Source of the DNA: an uncultured Caulobacterales bacterium
GTDB taxonomy: Bacteria > Pseudomonadota > Alphaproteobacteria > Caulobacterales > Caulobacteraceae
DNA: 39,857 nucleotides
Assembly (NCBI GenBank): GCA_903851655.1
Contig: CAINOV010000188.1
Coordinates: forward strand, 1 to 39,857
Direction of reading: 5' to 3'
Positions 16,366-25,604 of this stretch are shown piece by piece (the first letter of the stretch is position 1; each line of letters opens with the position of its first letter). Below the pieces are notes generated by a model. It worked only from the letters and a program-made list of their open reading frames with translations, made no database searches and was not told the origin of the DNA. Both the position numbers and the translations under genes were made by a program.

Positions 16366-17055
16366 TCAGGACACCATCGCCAGCGGGCCCGCGCCGGCGG
16401 CGGGCGCCGCCCGCTCCGGCCAGATGGCGGCGGAGACGTGGCCCCACAGGGCGTTCACCTCCAGCGCTGCAAGGCTTGTGGGATCGATCTCCTGGGCCAC
16501 CCGACCCTCGCGCACGGAATTCTGGTAGGCGGCCCGATAGCGCAAGCCCACCGGGGCCACGGGCAGACCCATCTCCAGCAGGGCCTCGAAGGTGTCGGAG
16601 ATGATCCGCGGCTCCTCCCCGTTGCGGCGGGAGGGCGCCTGATTGATCAGGAACATGCCCCGCTTGTTCATGTTGCCCACCAGCTCCACGGTCCGCGTGA
16701 TGGCCTTCAGGTCGAAATAGCAGGGACGCACGACGATCAGGCACAGGTCCGCCCAGCGCACCGCTTCGGCGCATTCCAGGTCCGTGGAGGGCCGCGTGTC
16801 GATGACCATCAGGTCATAGCCTTCGCGGGCGGCGCCGAGGCGCTGGGTGAAAAGGGTGCCGACCTTGGCCTCGGCCACCAGCGGGGTCGCAAGGTCGCGG
16901 ACCCGCTCCCGGTACCATTCGGAGGTGGAGCGCTGCGGATCCAGGTCCGCGACCAGGGTCTTGCGACCCGCCCGCTCGGCCTCGACCGCCAGATGCAAAG
17001 CCACCGTGGTCTTCCCGGTTCCACCTTTTCTCGACAGCACGGCCAGGGTGCGCAT
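16366..17055 (-). CDS. Orphan ParA/MinD-family ATPase
   Basis: A 229-residue P-loop ATPase. The deviant Walker A motif is KGGTGKTT with signature lysine K10 and K15; ADLDPQRS (A' motif) and LMVIDTRPS (Walker B) follow. Such proteins dimerise on ATP, bind DNA or membrane and position cargo. No parB, MinE-like or other partner gene is adjacent, and it is shorter than chromosomal ParA (about 265). It faces the end of a flagellar operon, so a role in polar placement can be considered but is not shown. The ATG at 17055 has GGAGAGACC directly upstream, which favours it over longer starts. Confidence 0.85.
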   Translation of the reverse strand: MRTLAVLSRKGGTGKTTVALHLAVEAERAGRKTLVADLDPQRSTSEWYRERVRDLATPLVAEAKVGTLFTQRLGAAREGYDLMVIDTRPSTDLECAEAVRWADLCLIVVRPCYFDLKAITRTVELVGNMNKRGMFLINQAPSRRNGEEPRIISDTFEALLEMGLPVAPVGLRYRAAYQNSVREGRVAQEIDPTSLAALEVNALWGHVSAAIWPERAAPAAGAGPLAMVS

Positions 17056-17328
17056 GGTCTCTCCGCTCAGAAGTCCGTTCGGTCTATAGCGCCGGAAACC
17101 GGACCGGCCGCCAGGGCGTGCTGTCAGGGACACCGGGAATAGACAGCCTGCGCACCGAACGCGCCTATCTAACCGAGGTGTGCCACAGACATACGCAGCG
17201 GCCAATTAACCATCTCACCCGCGTGTGATTCTAACAACGCGCCACGGGCCTCCAATGGCGATTTTTTCGCCTATGCCGCGTTATTTTATTTTCTAAATAA
17301 TTTGATAGATTGTATTTTGAACTTCAAG

Positions 17329-17358
17329 TTGACTTACAAACATTTTTTGTTCTGCTAT
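17329..17358 (+). promoter_or_regulatory. Candidate uvrA promoter
   Basis: TTGACT (17329-17334) is followed after 18 bases by TGCTAT (17353-17358). The -10 part lies inside the SOS box, so bound LexA would cover it. The start would fall near 17365, which makes the in-frame GTG at 17366 unlikely as a start codon and supports the ATG at 17438. Confidence 0.5.
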
Positions 17359-17363
17359 TGTTC
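17349..17363 (+). promoter_or_regulatory. LexA-binding SOS box (GTTC-N7-GTTC)
   Basis: GTTC (17349-17352), seven bases, GTTC (17360-17363): an exact match to the direct-repeat SOS box of alphaproteobacteria. It sits 75 bases before the uvrA ATG in an AT-rich promoter. Damage-induced cleavage of LexA would release uvrA. Confidence 0.88.
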
Positions 17364-17437
17364 CCGTGCGCTCCGGCGGGTCCGATCTTACATCCCGTCC
17401 GTCACTGTCTCACCCTCCAGAATGGGCTCCGCCGCGA

Positions 17438-20344
17438 ATGATCGACCCATCCGCCTTCATCCGCGTGCGCGGCGCGCGAGAACACAATCTCAAGGGCGTG
17501 GACGTGGACATCCCCCGCGGCCAGCTGGTGGTGCTGACGGGGCTGTCCGGGTCGGGCAAGAGCTCGCTGGCCTTCGACACCATCTATGCGGAAGGTCAGC
17601 GCCGGTACGTGGAAAGCCTGTCGGCCTACGCCCGCCAGTTCCTCGAGCTGATGGGCAAGCCGGACGTGGACCTGATCGAGGGCCTGTCCCCGGCCATCTC
17701 CATCGAGCAGAAGACGACCTCCAAGAACCCCCGCTCCACCGTGGGCACGGTGACCGAGATCCACGACTACATGCGTCTTCTCTGGGCCCGGGTGGGGGTT
17801 CCCTACTCTCCCGCCACGGGCCTGCCGATCGAGAGCCAGACCATCAGCCAGATGGTGGACAAGATCGTCACCCTGCCCGAGGGCTCGCGCCTGAACCTGC
17901 TGGCGCCAGTGATCCGCGGCCGCAAGGGCGAATACCGCAAGGAGATCGCCGAGTGGCAGCGCGCCGGTTTCCAGCGGCTGAAGATCGACGGGACCCTCTA
18001 CCTGATCGAGGAGGCGCCGACCCTCGACAAGAAGTTCAAGCACGACATCGACATCGTCGTGGACCGGATCGTGGTGAAGTCCGGGATCCAGCAGCGCCTG
18101 GCCGACAGCCTGGAGACAGCCCTGCGCCTCGCCGACGGTCTGGCCACCGCCGAATTCGCCGATCTGGCGGCCGGAGAAACAGAGCCCCGCAAGATCCTGT
18201 TTTCCGAGCGCTTTGCCTGCCCGGTCTCAGGCTTCACCATCACCGAGATCGAGCCGCGTCTGTTCTCGTTCAACAATCCGTTCGGGGCCTGTCCGACCTG
18301 TGACGGCCTGGGTCAGAAGCTGACCTTCGACGCGGACCTGGTGGTGCCGGATCCGGACAAGTCCCTGCACCACGGCGCCGTGGCGCCCTGGGCCCGGGGG
18401 CCCTCCCCCCTCTACACCCAGACCCTGCAGGCCCTGGCCCGGCACTACGGCTTCTCCATGGACGCCGCCTGGCGCGATCTGCCCGCCAAGGCGCACGAGG
18501 TCATCCTGCGCGGCACGGGCGCGGAAAAGATCAAGTTCGTCTATGACGACCAGGCCCGGCGCTATGAGGTGGTCAAGCCCTTCGAGGGCGTCATGCCCAA
18601 TCTGGAGCGTCGCTGGCGGGAGACGGACTCCGCCTGGGTGCGCGAGGAACTCGGCCGCTACCAGTCCGACACCCCCTGCGAGGCCTGCGGCGGTCAGAGG
18701 CTGAAGCCCGAGGCCCTGGCCGTGAAGGTCGACGCCCGCTCCATCGCCGAGGTGTCCCGCCTCTCGATCAAGGACGCCCGGGCCTGGTTCGAGGACGTCG
18801 CCAACCGCCTCTCGGCCAAGGACATGGAGATTGCCCGGCGCATCCTGAAGGAGATCAACGACCGGCTGCGGTTCCTGAACGATGTGGGGCTGGACTATCT
18901 CAGCCTGTCCCGGGCGTCGGGCACCCTGTCCGGGGGGGAGAGCCAGCGGATCCGGCTGGCCTCGCAGATCGGCTCCGGCCTGACCGGCGTGCTCTATGTG
19001 CTGGACGAGCCGTCCATCGGCCTGCACCAGCGGGACAACACCCGCCTGCTCACCTCGCTCAAGGGCCTGCGGGACCTGGGCAACTCCGTGCTGGTGGTGG
19101 AGCATGACGAGGAAGCCATCCTGACCGCCGATCATGTGATCGACATGGGCCCGGCCGCCGGCGTCCATGGGGGCGAGATCGTGGCCCAGGGCTCCCCCCA
19201 GGACATCATGGACCAGCCGCGCAGCCTCACCGGCCAGTACCTCACCGGCGCCCGGGACATTCCGGTGCCGGAAAAGCGCCGCCCGGTGAACCGCAAGAAG
19301 CTGCTTCGTGTGATCGGCGCCCGGGGCAACAACCTGAAGTCCGTGACCGGCGAGATTCCCGTGGGCGTCTTCACCTGCATCACCGGCGTGTCCGGCGGCG
19401 GCAAGTCCACCTTCACCCTGGAGACCCTGTACAAGGCCGCTGCCCGACGGCTGAACAACGCCTCCGACGCCCCCGCGCCGCACGACCGGATCGAGGGGCT
19501 GGAGCATTTCGACAAGGTCATCGACATCGACCAGAGCCCGATCGGACGCACCCCGCGATCCAATCCGGCGACCTACACCGGCGCCTTTGGACCGATCCGG
19601 GACTGGTTCGCCGGTCTGCCGGAATCGAAGGTGCGCGGCTATGGCCCCGGGCGCTTCTCGTTCAACGTCAAGGGCGGACGCTGCGAGGCCTGCCAGGGCG
19701 ACGGGGTCATCAAGATCGAGATGCACTTCCTGCCGGACGTCTACGTCACCTGCGACATCTGCAAGGGCAAGCGCTACAACCGCGAGACCCTGGAGATCCT
19801 GTTCCGGGGCAAGTCCATCGCCGAGGTGCTGGACATGACCGTCGACGAGGCGGCGGACTTCTTCAAGGCCGTGCCGCCGATCCGCGACAAGATGGCGACG
19901 CTCAAGCGGGTCGGGCTCGGCTATGTGAAGGTCGGCCAGCAGGCCACCACCCTGTCCGGCGGCGAGGCCCAGCGGGTGAAGCTGTCCAAGGAGCTGTCCC
20001 GCCGCGCCACCGGACGCACCCTCTACATCCTCGACGAGCCGACCACCGGCCTCCACTTCGAGGATACGAGGAAACTTCTGGAGGTGCTGCACGAGCTTGT
20101 GGACCACGGCAACACCGTGGTGGTCATCGAGCACAATCTGGATGTGGTGAAGACCGCCGACTGGCTTCTGGACTTCGGTCCCGAGGGCGGCGAAGGCGGT
20201 GGCCGGATCGTCAGCCAGGGGACGCCGGAGACCGTGGCCGCCGACAGCGACAGCTGGACGGGGCGCTACCTCTCCGAGGTCCTCGCCCGGCACGAAATCC
20301 GGCGCAAGGCCCGGGTCAGCGCCATTGACCGCCGGGTCGGCTAG
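17438..20344 (+). CDS. uvrA: Excinuclease ABC subunit A (UvrA)
   Basis: A 968-residue protein of normal length that recognises DNA lesions and loads UvrB in nucleotide excision repair. First ATPase: Walker A near residues 35-43 (GLSGSGKSS), signature [16 protein letters not shown]; second: GVSGGGKST and [11 protein letters not shown], with [11 protein letters not shown]. The C-terminal zinc module CEACQGDG...[10 protein letters not shown] is intact. The first zinc site reads C261-P-V-S264 ... C285-P-T-C288, so one of four cysteines is serine; this may be usual in the lineage. The start [12 protein letters not shown] matches the normal UvrA beginning. Regulated by the SOS box upstream. Confidence 0.97.
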
Positions 20345-20359
20345 TCGGTCCCCGACGTC

Positions 20360-21211
20360 TCAGGCCGTCCGGCGCACGGTCATCAGCGCCTGGACCGCCG
20401 CCGCGCCGGGCGCCTGCAGCACCACCGTGATCAGCACGCCGATCATGGCCATCCACGCCGTCGAGAGGATCGACGCCACGGACAGGAAGCTGACGGCGTG
20501 GCTCGGGTCCAGCAGCTGGAACACCGAACCGATCACCGCGCCCAGAATGTAGATCAGGGCGCCCAGGATTCCAGCCATCACATAGGCCCCCAGCAGGATC
20601 CAGTGCCGGCCGGCCGTCAACCGCCAGGATTGCGTCACGGCCAGCCGGCCTTCGAGCTGGGTCAGGGCGGGGGTGAGCGACAGACGAACGGCGCAGTAGC
20701 CGAACAGGGCCACGACGACGGCGAAATAGGCGGCGGCGATCAGCGGCCCCGCCGCTCCCGCCGCGCCGGCCACGGCCGCGACGCCGCTGCCCAGGGCCGA
20801 CGCGGACAGGGCGGCGATCATCACCGCCGCAAGACCCAGCAGGTTCACCCCGAACATGCGCAGCTCCTCGACCCCCAGGCGCAGGTAGAACCGGCCGCCG
20901 GTCAGGGGCTGGAACACCGCCCGGAAGCACGCGGTCATCAGAATCGCCTGAAGCGCCAGGTCGAACGGCGCCAGTCCCAGCAGGGTCGGCAGCAGGGGCT
21001 CGGCCGCCTGGCTGAGCTCGTCCATGGAGCGCCCGGCCGCCACCGCGCCCATGAAGTTCGTCAGCTGCGGCCCGGACACCGCATTCATGGCGAGCACCGC
21101 CAGAAGGTTGAAGCCCAGACGCAGCAAGGCCCAGGCCGCCACAGCCCGAGGCTGTTCACGGGTCAGTCGAAAGCCCTCAAGGGCGACGTCCGTCGCCGGA
21201 AACTCGGTCAT
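20360..21211 (-). CDS. Polytopic membrane protein of unknown function (copy 3 of a set)
   Basis: A 283-residue protein with about six hydrophobic segments and no signal peptide. It begins MTEFPATDVALEGFRLTREQP, a soluble start with the EGFR pattern also seen in the neighbouring protein. A later block (RLSLTPALTQLEG...SWRLTAGRHWILLGAYV) aligns by eye with blocks in the two upstream genes. No catalytic or transport motif was recognised. It is separated from the upstream copy by 124 bases that include the palindrome AAGCGCTT (21226-21233), so it may have its own control. Its stop faces uvrA with 15 bases between. Confidence 0.7.
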   Translation of the reverse strand: MTEFPATDVALEGFRLTREQPRAVAAWALLRLGFNLLAVLAMNAVSGPQLTNFMGAVAAGRSMDELSQAAEPLLPTLLGLAPFDLALQAILMTACFRAVFQPLTGGRFYLRLGVEELRMFGVNLLGLAAVMIAALSASALGSGVAAVAGAAGAAGPLIAAAYFAVVVALFGYCAVRLSLTPALTQLEGRLAVTQSWRLTAGRHWILLGAYVMAGILGALIYILGAVIGSVFQLLDPSHAVSFLSVASILSTAWMAMIGVLITVVLQAPGAAAVQALMTVRRTA

Positions 21212-21335
21212 GGTCCAGATCTTTCAAGCGCTTGCCACCGGCGACGCCGCCGTTGCGACGCGTTAGCCCTGCTTCATTCAACGACGCAATGGCCCGGCGC
21301 AAGGGGCTTGCGACAATTCCGGCCGGAAACAGGGC

Positions 21336-22253
21336 TCAGCCCCGCTCGCGGGACAGCCCCAGATAGACGTGGGCCGCCGGGGCCCGGAGCAGCACGGCGT
21401 TGAGGACGCTGGCGAGACTGAACGGGACGATGCCCGCGACGACCGCCGGCCATGCGGCGGCGGCCAGCTCCGGCCCGAACCCGTGGGCCGAGAAGACGGC
21501 GGGACCGCCGACACCCAGATAGACGACGCCGCCCAGCAGGATCGCCGCCACCACCAGGGCCAGGGACACGATCAGGGCCAGAAGGGCGGACAGGACATAG
21601 GTCCCCAGCAACCGCCAGAAGACCCCGCGGGTCTTCGACCACGACTCGAAGAAGCGGAACTCTCCCTCTGCAAAGGTCATGGCCGGCGCGAGGGACAGAC
21701 GGATCCCCACATAAAGGGCCCCGGCCGCGCCGATCACGCCGCCCGCGACGATCGCCCCCAGCACGGCCTTGCCCATCTGCGCGGACGAAACGCCGGATGC
21801 GGCGATGCCTATGGCCGTGAAGACGATGACAAACAGCACCCACGCCAGGGTCACGCCAACCATCACGGCGCCATAGACCAGTTGGACCAGGAATTGGCGG
21901 AACTCGTCGCCGCCAAAGGCCAGATAGGCGAAATTGCGGCTGTCCGGCCGGATCACCGATCGCAGGACCGCTGCGCCGAACACCGCCTGGACCACCACGC
22001 TGAAGGGGGTCATCAGCATCTCCGCAAACCGGACCTTCTGTGCGAACACCTGCACCACCGACGGCGCCAGATGCGCCTGGAAGGCGGTCAGCAGCATGTG
22101 AAGGTCAGGACCCAGCACCTGCCAGCCTGCGGCGAGCGCAGCGGCGGTCAGGACCAGATACAACCCGACCCAGACCGCGATCACGTCCGGTCTGCGACGC
22201 AGGACCCGGAAGCCCTCCATCGCGGCGTCCGAAGGGGAGAAGCCCCCGCTCAT
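21336..22253 (-). CDS. Polytopic membrane protein of unknown function (copy 2 of a set)
   Basis: A 305-residue protein, about six hydrophobic segments. The start MSGGFSPSDAAMEGFRVLRRRP and the block RLSLAPAMTFAEG...SWSKTRGVFWRLLGTYVLSALL match the pattern in the 20360-21211 gene. The conserved cytoplasmic-looking elements between helices suggest a common fold, but I do not recognise a named family. Its ATG overlaps the stop of the upstream gene (ATGA, 22250-22253), so translation is likely coupled. Confidence 0.7.
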   Translation of the reverse strand: MSGGFSPSDAAMEGFRVLRRRPDVIAVWVGLYLVLTAAALAAGWQVLGPDLHMLLTAFQAHLAPSVVQVFAQKVRFAEMLMTPFSVVVQAVFGAAVLRSVIRPDSRNFAYLAFGGDEFRQFLVQLVYGAVMVGVTLAWVLFVIVFTAIGIAASGVSSAQMGKAVLGAIVAGGVIGAAGALYVGIRLSLAPAMTFAEGEFRFFESWSKTRGVFWRLLGTYVLSALLALIVSLALVVAAILLGGVVYLGVGGPAVFSAHGFGPELAAAAWPAVVAGIVPFSLASVLNAVLLRAPAAHVYLGLSRERG

Positions 22254-24037
22254 GCCTCATGCCCCTCGGCGGCGCCCACCGGGCCCCGCGCCGGCGGCTG
22301 CTCGGGCGTCGCAGGCGCGGGCTCCGCCGGCTCCGATGTCACGGCGTCATTGGCCGGCGTCTGCGGCGCGGGCGCGTCCCGGACGGCCTGGAAGGGCCGC
22401 GGCGGCGCATAGGCGATCACTTCCAGCGGTGGCGGCGCCTCGATCTCCGAGGGAGGAACGGCCAAGACCGGCGACGCGCCGGAAGTGTCTGGAGACCCTT
22501 CGGCATTGGCTGCGGCCGGAGCGGCTGGCCGCACGGGCCGGGTTTCCACCCGCGGAGGGGGCGCAGGCGCATCCTCCGACGAGATTGCGGCGGCCGGCGC
22601 CTCGGCCAGGCCCCCTGCCGGGGCGTCGGGCGGCACGACGCCGCTGAGCCAGAACAGGTCCTTCAAACCTTCCGCGGGGTCGGCCTGCCGCCAGACATAG
22701 AGCTCCTCCGGGCGGGCTTCCGGAGCGGCGGCCGGGGGCTCGGCGTCGTGCAGAGCCGGCGCATGGGACCCGGACAGCCAAGGCGCGTCAGGCGCGAGCA
22801 GCATCGGATGCTCCAGCGCGGTCACCGCCGGATCGATGGGTGAGCGCGGCCCCTCATGGGCCTCGCCGTCAAACACCGGCGGATGGGCGGCGGGTCCGGC
22901 CATGGGGGGCGCAGGCTCGGCCGCCCGCGGGAACCGCATCGCCAGCACTTCCAGCTCCGGCCAGACGCCGACGGGGGCCGGCGTCGGCGGCGCCGGATCG
23001 CCAAACGCCTGGCCCGACGTGTCGAAGGCGACGGAGCGATGATCCGGCCATGCGATGCGATCGGCGCCGATCTGGAAGGCCGCGGCGCTGCGCCGGACCG
23101 GGGACGCGACCTCGGGCGCCGCGCCGGCGTCGTCGCCGGACCCCTCGGCTCCGTCCGTCCCGGTTTCCACCAGGTCGGCCACCACCCGCAGAACCGGCTT
23201 GCGCGTCGCCGCCCGGGGCGCCTCGGGACGCCATTCGAGATAAAGATGCGTCAGGGCGCCGACAACCAGCGTCGGCATCAGCGCGCCGTGGAACAGCCCG
23301 GACAGGACCGCGCCCGCCAGGGCGTCCGCCAGGGGCCAGCGGCCGGGGCCCAGGGTGAACTCTCCCAGCTCGGCCTGGTTGGCGAAGGCGGCCGCCGTCA
23401 GGGCCAGAGGATAGAGCGCCAGGATCGCCGTTGCGGGGAGCGCCACCGCCAGAAGCCGCTTCTGGGTCAGGGGCCAGGTCTGGAACAGCCGCAGCTGATC
23501 CTCGGCCACGGTCGCAGCCCCGCCCAGCGCCACGCGCATCGCCACCAGCGGGTAGAGAGCCAGCACGCCCAGCCCGCAATAGGCGCCATAGCGCAGGGCG
23601 GCCAGCACGCTCAGCTCCCCTTGGCTGCGGAACACAAAGGCCACCGCCGCGGCGACCAGGGCCGCCGGGGCGAGGAACAGCACGGCCAGAAGGAACATGA
23701 GCATCGCGAGACCCAGCATCCGCGCCTCGGCCAGACCCACGCGAAGACCTGCGAGGCCCCGCGGATAGCGCCGGCTCTCCGGCCCGGCGTAGAGATTGAG
23801 CGCCACGCGGTACAGACCCGCCGTCAACGGGGCGAACATCAGCGCCGACCAGAGCCCTCCGCCGGCGATCAGCGCCATGCCCAGGTCCCGGTTGACCGGC
23901 CCGTGTTCGCCAAAGAACATCACCGCGGGCCCGGCGACGGACAACGCCAGGACCAACCACGCATCCCGCCAGGCCGCCGCACTGAACTGCAGCGCCCGTC
24001 CGAGACTGGTCACCCGGGTCGACCGGGCTGAAGACAT
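22250..24037 (-). CDS. Membrane protein with long disordered Pro/Ala-rich tail (copy 1 of a set)
   Basis: A 595-residue protein. Residues about 1-270 form a six-helix membrane domain related to the two downstream genes (MRVALGGAATVAEDQLRLFQTW...LTQKRLLAVALPATAIL). Residues about 290-595 are low-complexity, rich in Pro, Ala and Glu, broken by short ordered-looking islands such as EELYVWRQADPAEGLKDLF and WPELEVLAMRFPRA. The tail probably lies in the cytoplasm and could be a scaffold, but no function is known. It is the first gene of the cluster and is divergent from trmFO across 160 bases. Confidence 0.7.
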   Translation of the reverse strand: MSSARSTRVTSLGRALQFSAAAWRDAWLVLALSVAGPAVMFFGEHGPVNRDLGMALIAGGGLWSALMFAPLTAGLYRVALNLYAGPESRRYPRGLAGLRVGLAEARMLGLAMLMFLLAVLFLAPAALVAAAVAFVFRSQGELSVLAALRYGAYCGLGVLALYPLVAMRVALGGAATVAEDQLRLFQTWPLTQKRLLAVALPATAILALYPLALTAAAFANQAELGEFTLGPGRWPLADALAGAVLSGLFHGALMPTLVVGALTHLYLEWRPEAPRAATRKPVLRVVADLVETGTDGAEGSGDDAGAAPEVASPVRRSAAAFQIGADRIAWPDHRSVAFDTSGQAFGDPAPPTPAPVGVWPELEVLAMRFPRAAEPAPPMAGPAAHPPVFDGEAHEGPRSPIDPAVTALEHPMLLAPDAPWLSGSHAPALHDAEPPAAAPEARPEELYVWRQADPAEGLKDLFWLSGVVPPDAPAGGLAEAPAAAISSEDAPAPPPRVETRPVRPAAPAAANAEGSPDTSGASPVLAVPPSEIEAPPPLEVIAYAPPRPFQAVRDAPAPQTPANDAVTSEPAEPAPATPEQPPARGPVGAAEGHEA

Positions 24038-24197
24038 GCCGTTACCCCACGCTAGGCCGCCTTTCAGGCGCTGCTCCGCACTTTATCGAATTTTTTTGTC
24101 GGCAGGGCATGAAACTTTTCTGCAACGCGCGCGCCGGCGTGACCTGTTGCCGCAATGCGCCGGTTGATCCTGCGGGTCATTTGCCTATGGTTTGGCC

Positions 24198-25604
24198 ATG
24201 ACCTTGAAACCTATCCACATTGTCGGCGCGGGCCTCGCCGGATCCGAAGCGGCCTGGCAGATCGCGGAGACGGGCGTTCCCGTGGTGCTGCATGAAATGC
24301 GGCCGGATCGCGCAACGCCTGCGCACCAGACTGGCGCCTGTGCGGAGCTGGTGTGCTCCAACTCCTTCCGCAGCGACGACTGGGAGTACAACGCCGTCGG
24401 CCTGCTGCACGAAGAGATGCGCCGTCTGGGCTCCCTCATCCTGCGCGCGGCGGACGTGCACAAGGTCCCCGCCGGCGGCGCCCTGGCTGTCGACCGGGAG
24501 GGCTTCGCCGACGCCGTCACCGCCGCCCTCGCCACGCATCCGCGGATCACCCTCGTCCGCGGCGAGGTGGCCGGCTGGCCGGACGCGGACTGGGGCCAGA
24601 CCATCATCGCCACCGGCCCCCTCACCACCGAAACCCTGTCGCAGGCGATCCTCGCCCGCACCGGCGAAGACACCCTGGCCTTCTTCGACGCCATCGCGCC
24701 CATCCTGCACGCTGACAGCATCGACATGTCCATCGCCTGGCGCCAGTCGCGATACGACAAGGAAGGTCCCGGGGGCGACGCGGCGGCCTATATCAACTGT
24801 CCGCTGAACCGCGAGCAGTACGAGGCCTTCGTCCAGGACCTGCTGGACGGCCCCAAGGCGGATTTCCGGGAGTGGGAAAAGGACACGCCCTATTTCGACG
24901 GCTGTCTGCCCATCGAGGTGATGGCCGAGCGGGGGAGAGAGACCCTGCGCCACGGGCCGATGAAGCCCGTCGGCCTCACCAATCCCCATGCGCCCCTGGA
25001 AAAGCCCTACGCCGTGGTCCAGCTGCGCCAGGACAATGCGCTGGGCACGCTCTACAACATGGTCGGGTTCCAGACGAAGCTGAAGCATGGCGCCCAGACG
25101 GAGATCTTCCGCCGGATCCCTGGTCTCGGCGACGCCCAGTTCGCCCGGCTGGGCGGGCTGCACCGGAACACCTTCATCCAGTCCCCCCGCCTGCTGGACG
25201 ACCAGCTGCGCCTGCGCAGCGAGCCCCGGATCCGCTTCGCCGGCCAGATCACCGGGGTCGAAGGCTATGTGGAGAGCGCCGCGATCGGCCTGCTGTGCGG
25301 CCGCTTCGCCGCCGCGGCCGCCCGGGGCGAGCCCCTGTCGCCGCCGCCGGCGACCACGGCGCTGGGCGCCCTGCTCGCTCATGTGACGGGCGGTCATCTG
25401 GGCGATGGCAGGGGCTCGTTCCAGCCGATGAACGTCAATTACGGCCTGCTGCCCCAGGTCGAGGCGCCGCGGAAAACCGACGACGGACGCAAGCTCGCCC
25501 CGCCGGAGCGGGGCCGGGCGAAAAAGCGGCTGATGAGCCTGCGCGCCCTTGCGGATCTGGACGCCTGGCGTAAGGCGGCGGAGACTGAACCGGCGTCGGC
25601 CTAG
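24198..25604 (+). CDS. trmFO: Folate-dependent tRNA (uracil-54-C5)-methyltransferase TrmFO
   Basis: A 468-residue FAD enzyme that makes ribothymidine at position 54 of tRNA using methylenetetrahydrofolate. The N-terminal [12 protein letters not shown] dinucleotide site, the [13 protein letters not shown] motif with its cysteines, and later [15 protein letters not shown] and MNVNYGLLP are typical. The ATG at 24198 is preferred; a TTG two codons earlier is possible. TrmFO occurs widely in alphaproteobacteria in place of the S-adenosylmethionine enzyme TrmA. Its stop overlaps that of the facing gene by four bases. Confidence 0.96.

Follow-up and report, generated by a model that had tools for sequence, protein, structure and literature searches.

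Three consecutive genes for membrane proteins lie between uvrA and trmFO in a 39,857-nucleotide (nt) stretch of DNA from an uncultured Caulobacterales bacterium (GenBank assembly GCA_903851655.1, contig CAINOV010000188.1), which is referred to here as the window. The first gene of the array, P0003 (22250–24037, −), encodes a 595-residue protein of a divergent class (class D), made up of a six-helix domain (residues 1–275; 23213–24037, −) and an Ala/Pro-rich acidic C-terminal tail (residues 276–595; 22253–23212, −). It is followed by P0002 (21336–22253, −; 305 residues) and P0001 (20360–21211, −; 283 residues), both of which belong to a canonical class (class C). The stop codon of P0003 and the start codon of P0002 share an ATGA sequence (22250–22253, −), a 4-nt overlap, and the same −4 gap is found in the three other P0003-bearing genomes of the window's genus; P0002 and P0001 are separated by 124 nt. 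The array converges with uvrA (17366–20344, +; UvrA domain in Pfam) and diverges from trmFO (24192–25604, +; Pfam GIDA), and both genes are conserved flanks. An earlier note on this DNA had placed three consecutive six-helix membrane proteins at 20360–24037; the open reading frames indeed occupy exactly that span, and hydropathy reveals six hydrophobic segments in each protein. Comparison across related genomes shows the array to be an old, widespread tandem set of six-helix inner-membrane proteins located between uvrA and trmFO.

Relatives of these proteins are common in the window's bacterial family, where a search with P0002 recovered them in 94 of 99 sampled genomes; the P0003 domain was found in 11 of the 99, including four of the six from the window's genus. 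At the level of the class, a wider profile gave matches in at least 112 of 385 genomes, no more than six candidates having been scored in each. For the position of the genes, 95 loci were surveyed, drawn from 89 of the 99 genomes. As they were picked for holding a family match, they give no measure of the frequency of empty slots. The P0002 search had found nothing in five of the ten remaining genomes, and the matches of the other five were not among the loci. Both flanks were in view in 76 loci from 76 genomes, 19 loci having been dropped with one or both flanks out of view, many of them elsewhere in the genome. In these 76 genomes of the family the uvrA–trmFO slot is kept, and all 203 family genes run against the direction of uvrA and trmFO. 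The window's own array shares the C/D profile homology, the position between the two flanks and the strand opposite both. The number of copies per slot ranges from one to seven (one in 12 genomes, two in 31, three in 16, four in 11, five in one, six in three and seven in two); class D is present in 41 of the 76 arrays, and in none does it occur without class C (a raw count that ignores kinship). Beyond the family, members in the families f2, f5, f6, f11, f92, f117 and f138 of the same class lie between or beside uvrA, trmFO or a GatA-like amidase gene (the amidase named by eye), whilst in other families of the class they are located elsewhere. This recurrence outside the family shows that the slot is old. 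Of the 76 slots, 32 also contain, within the array or next to it, a gene for a glutathione S-transferase that runs in the direction of uvrA (for example L053:7093–7872, assigned by Pfam for that locus).

The three proteins are homologous, although for P0003 the sequence comparison becomes convincing only at the profile level. P0001 and P0002 align at 32% over 236 positions (E 4e-22, blastp), whereas the pairwise matches of P0003 to P0001 and P0002 are marginal (7e-5 and 0.001). A profile built from 52 relatives, from which P0003-type rows had been left out, recovered P0003 at E 1.6e-9 (Z=10000), with no decoy among the 605 targets, whether reversed, shuffled or non-family, appearing at E ≤10; two other P0003-type rows fared less well, L065_5096 scoring only 0.39 and L057_4654 going unreported. 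Profiles of four orthologues each reached P0003 at 2.7e-5 from the P0001 side and at 0.0012 from the P0002 side, the latter profile also picking up a non-family protein (E 3.9) and a shuffled sequence (E 7.5). The profile–profile comparison suggested in the earlier note links all three proteins, hhalign of four-sequence alignments giving 99.7% for P0001–P0002, 83.5% for P0001–P0003 and 56.6% for P0002–P0003; since the last of these is weak, the P0002–P0003 link rests on the larger, 52-relative profile. In a tree of 91 rows, a D set of 21 rows that includes P0003 is split from 70 C rows with support of 97/85 (midpoint root), with the caveat that several branches are long, the longest being that of L086_9965, a sister-family row whose place in the D set is unsure. 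In the survey of the slots, class C or D was given by whichever of two profiles scored higher, which may have put members unlike the training rows in the wrong class. In the C part of the tree, P0001 and P0002 occupy different clades, and all three genes group with their respective orthologues. Because of this, and because P0003 lies in a deep set, a recent local duplication was rejected: the tandem expansion envisaged earlier holds, but it did not happen locally.

All three proteins are predicted to have both termini in the cytosol, because basic residues gather in the N-terminus and in the loops between helices 2 and 3 and helices 4 and 5; in P0001 and P0002 they also cluster in the short C-terminal end. 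The helix–loop–helix block that the earlier note saw in all three was recognized in P0001 and P0002 as RLSL...SWxxTxG, whilst P0003 carries RVAL...TWPLT and is without the closing L-x-G. The conserved positions of P0002 are R98, E117, R119, R185, W205, T208 and G210, and the charged residues among them are shared by the two classes: in P0002 numbering, R98 is found in 66 of 70 C rows and 20 of 21 D rows, E117 in 68 and 19, R119 in 52 and 19, and R185 in 69 and all 21. In P0003 itself, R77, E104, R106, R168, W188 and T191 are identical across four orthologues. Class D is also marked by changes of its own, for example W in place of P22 (17 of 21 rows) and G in place of Y110 (20 of 21 rows).

The two classes differ in the way in which their genes abut. 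Measured from the stop codon to the expected start of the next gene across all 95 loci, with three D-to-D pairs excluded, 35 of 38 D-to-C junctions are ≤30 nt, compared with 28 of 73 C-to-C and C-to-D junctions (Fisher p 1.9e-8), a few of these estimates being plainly off (with D-to-C values as low as about −120 nt and other values as low as −150 nt). Reduced to genus medians, ≤30 nt is found in 10 of 10 D-to-C cases and 6 of 14 others, among which D-to-D was counted (p 0.006). When starts were assigned to codons, which omits the 55 members that have no start codon near the expected place, gaps of ≤20 nt were seen in 24 of 29 D-to-C and 6 of 37 C-to-C junctions; the gap was exactly −4 in 8 of the 29 D-to-C junctions, and an overlap occurred in 2 of the 37 C-to-C junctions. 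The pairwise distances of D and its coupled C gene are correlated (r 0.92; partial r 0.66 given UvrA), compared with partial values of 0.52 for D and another C and 0.55 for C and another C; this is a modest difference, taken from the 28 of 43 D–C pairs that had a further C gene and UvrA, and carries no null test.

The tail of P0003 was described in the earlier note as a disordered extension of 300 residues. Its length is 320 residues (A 22%, P 19%), and from residue 263 onwards there are 47 acidic and 21 basic residues; the tail is presumably disordered, though a charge–hydropathy test did not call it unfolded. Blocks at 280–288, 322–332, 387–394, 408–414 and 458–466 are conserved, 70 of the 320 residues being invariant in four orthologues, and the ratio of non-synonymous to synonymous differences (pN/pS) is 0.39–0.67 in the tail and 0.30–0.54 in the membrane part (for comparison, 0.05 in uvrA for the L004–L005 pair). 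By these sequence measures the tail evolves faster than the membrane part, yet under constraint. The view of P0003 as the single extended copy of an expansion does not hold, as this 595-residue protein belongs to the divergent class and the tail is absent from 14 of the 21 D rows of the tree. Tails of ≥50 residues occur in 13 of 288 distinct-counted rows, which represent nine proteins once four second copies of the same locus are set aside. They occur both in class D and outside it and thus appear to have arisen more than once. The nine tails are uniformly acidic and poor in basic residues; two, from different lineages, are rich in His (29% and 22%), these His/Asp-rich C-terminal tails being those of L058 (frame from about 5327, +) and L087:4235–5587 (−).

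Amongst described families, the closest is PF10110 (GPDPase_memb), which P0001 and P0002 match at 16.3 and 15.2 bits; the gathering threshold of 29.6 bits is not reached, and P0003 gave no match to this profile. Eight of 30 aligned relatives match at E ≤1 (best 3.4e-4) and 8 of 29 at E ≤0.1 (best 2.2e-7), and the profile scores over cut-off in 4 of 21 genomes, the window genome not being one of them. One of these matches, G004:C17:1843–2076, is a relative located in the uvrA–trmFO slot; it is a P0002 homologue (E 5.6e-16) and scores 28.9 bits, or 29.8 with its neighbours in the frame. The matches of this relative and of the window proteins fall within profile positions 149–272. Since the window proteins score below threshold, P0003 is unmatched and one slot relative reaches the threshold, we regard the three as remote relatives of PF10110 and not as members of it. 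The architecture that gives the family its name is a fusion to a glycerophosphodiester phosphodiesterase domain, and a Pfam search found that domain in none of the three window proteins. Other families were touched by a few aligned proteins: DUF7544 (PF24400) by 2 of 29 (best 1.1e-5), DUF975 (PF06161) by 1 of 29 (5.2e-4) and the BPSS1780 family (NF041043) by 4 of 30 (best 9.2e-5), whilst DUF4013 (PF13197) appeared only at E 0.78, with P0002. None of these four gave a significant match to any of the three window proteins, which were unmatched by NF041043 at E ≤10 in NCBIfam. In the portions consulted of two papers, BPSS1780 and a DUF975 gene appear in screens only (PMC7998038, PMC9143085). The earlier note called the system undescribed, and this is consistent with the open-access literature, in which no study of these genes was found by family names, gene neighbours or guessed C. 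crescentus locus tags, nor any functional study of the GPDPase_memb superfamily; the wider superfamily does, however, have a name in Pfam.

The reading that we favour, with about an even chance of being right, is that of an old tandem array in which a D–C pair assembles co-translationally into an inner-membrane heteromer with a cytosolic charged site. The spacing of D and C genes, and the finding that D never occurs without C in the arrays surveyed, support a putative co-translated D–C heteromer; the hetero-oligomer proposed in the earlier note thus gains indirect support, from D being never without C in 76 arrays and tight against the next C gene. P0003, translated just ahead of and overlapping P0002, would most likely assemble with it as the two are made, and P0001 may be an additional C subunit or a homomeric version. 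The shared core would consist of the conserved Arg and Glu residues found where helices 2–4 meet the cytosol (R98, E117, R119 and R185 of P0002); it is probably a charged site, stabilizing the fold and binding a small anion or a lipid headgroup (the ligand is a guess), whilst the acidic tail of P0003 might, again as a guess, act as a cytosolic recruiting or gating arm. Several points weigh against this. The structure models are poor, with a predicted local distance difference test score (pLDDT) of 54 for P0002 and 46 for the P0003 domain, and no functional datum was found in the open-access literature for any family member. Class C exists without D, as shown by the 35 of 76 arrays that lack D and the 12 that hold a single C gene, and P0003 was found in four of the six genomes of the window's genus. 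As most D rows of the tree are tailless, the tail must stand outside any core mechanism. Finally, tight gene apposition can arise without protein contact, and the junction counts are corrected for kinship by genus medians only. What had been hypothetical membrane genes become a testable system, with a family-wide locus, two subunit classes, a predicted pair and near-invariant charged residues, and a laboratory Caulobacter strain is expected to carry both classes. Such a system would offer a way into an uncharacterised membrane superfamily.

A rival explanation is a birth-and-death array of paralogues that form separate homo-oligomers with related roles and no joint complex, the D–C spacing then reflecting duplication history and operon packing. 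This is possible though rather doubtful: the range of copy number and the frequent absence of D suit it well, and the distances of unpaired copies correlate too, but it does not account for tight spacing being specific to D-to-C when C-to-C and C-to-D junctions are wider, or for D never occurring without C. Other explanations concern function. If the proteins had the fold of CysZ they might be small channels or carriers for an ion or metal, with acidic or His-rich tails to buffer or sense the cation, as the composition of the nine distinct long tails would allow. Indeed, when the AlphaFold2 model of P0002 (pLDDT 54 and a predicted template modelling score of 0.41, from 9 sequences) was searched with VIA-align, the list was headed by two CysZ structures that overlap it over nearly its full length, 6d79 (Z 10.8, root-mean-square deviation 3.5, 198 aligned) and 6d9z (Z 9.9, 4.8, 218 aligned). 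These Z-scores, however, sit below the caution level for helical bundles and come from a low-confidence model, and a designed protein in the third row (Z 9.3) is tied with 6d9z. Foldseek gave no match at E ≤0.001, with 6d9z at E 7.5, and a viral fold library likewise gave none at E ≤0.001; the best matches to solved structures by sequence were at E 0.91 and 0.036, the latter to chain TMHC2_E. CysZ belongs to EI24 (PF07264), and hhalign of our family against 30 EI24 proteins gave 0.3%, within the 0.1–1.0% range of seven control families (four of them single sequences), so that sequence profiles lend no support to an EI24 relation. The EI24 profile had no match in the window genome, and across 21 genomes it scored over cut-off in none and more weakly in two. 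As a separate observation on its distribution, 124 of 150 genomes of the phylum have an EI24 match over cut-off, compared with none of the 21 that comprise the window genome and its relatives.

The resemblance to CysZ extends, in our reading, to its charged residues. In CysZ, Glu/Arg contacts at helices H3–H5 hold a hydrophilic head (PMC5967866), and R98, E117 and R185 appear to be similarly positioned. The same study describes two long membrane helices, two half-inserted pairs and subunits inverted in topology (PMC5967866), which differs from the six helices in a single orientation predicted here. Taken together, we consider a CysZ-like conduit unlikely. The broader picture built upon it, in which a modular heteromer at a fixed slot contains a co-translated D–C pair of CysZ-like fold that transports or senses a small ion or metal, gains and loses C subunits over the range of one to seven genes and is regulated by exchangeable acidic or His-rich tails, seems just as improbable. 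A role as an accessory of phospholipid turnover, presenting lipid headgroups to soluble enzymes in the manner of the membrane part of glycerophosphodiester phosphodiesterases, would follow from the remote similarity to PF10110, but there is no catalytic domain in the three proteins and no lipid enzyme among the array's own genes, and the literature consulted does not establish what the PF10110 membrane domain itself does; this we regard as very unlikely. Anti-phage defence was also considered and rejected, there being no PADLOC match at E ≤1.

A promoter scan found none, and a terminator scan returned five terminator-like sites, all within the P0003 coding sequence (shuffles average 1.7). The motif GTTC-N7-GTTC, a LexA-type (SOS) box, occurs at 17349–17363 (+), just upstream of uvrA and >6 kb from the 5′ end of the array (24037), and a match lies near the uvrA start in 19 of 22 listed loci. 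The window's count of two matches does not exceed chance, as 18 of 100 shuffles reach that number. By its position the box fits SOS control of uvrA and not of the array, and SOS control of the array was rejected on these grounds. In C. crescentus (Caulobacter crescentus), uvrA is CC_2590 (PMC3751524); another paper lists CC_2589, the adjoining number, as a LexA target, which could not be assigned to this family (PMC3073932).

Copies outside the slot have no common partner among their neighbours, which were named by eye. Six adjoin a gene resembling a major facilitator superfamily transporter (L167, L177, L189, L190, L197 and L205), four of them also with an alpha/beta-hydrolase-like gene, and three (L215, L222 and L230) lie beside a band-7/SPFH-like gene; PF10110-like genes in G005 and G007 adjoin an RDD-like gene. 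The window genome itself holds a fourth family gene, a solitary one on contig C361 (L046:4829–5779), located upstream of a gene for 5-formyltetrahydrofolate cyclo-ligase (Pfam); a gene that by eye is MreB-like lies about 3.6 kb away. Within the window, a gene for a ParA/MipZ-like ATPase (16366–17205, −) is divergent from uvrA.

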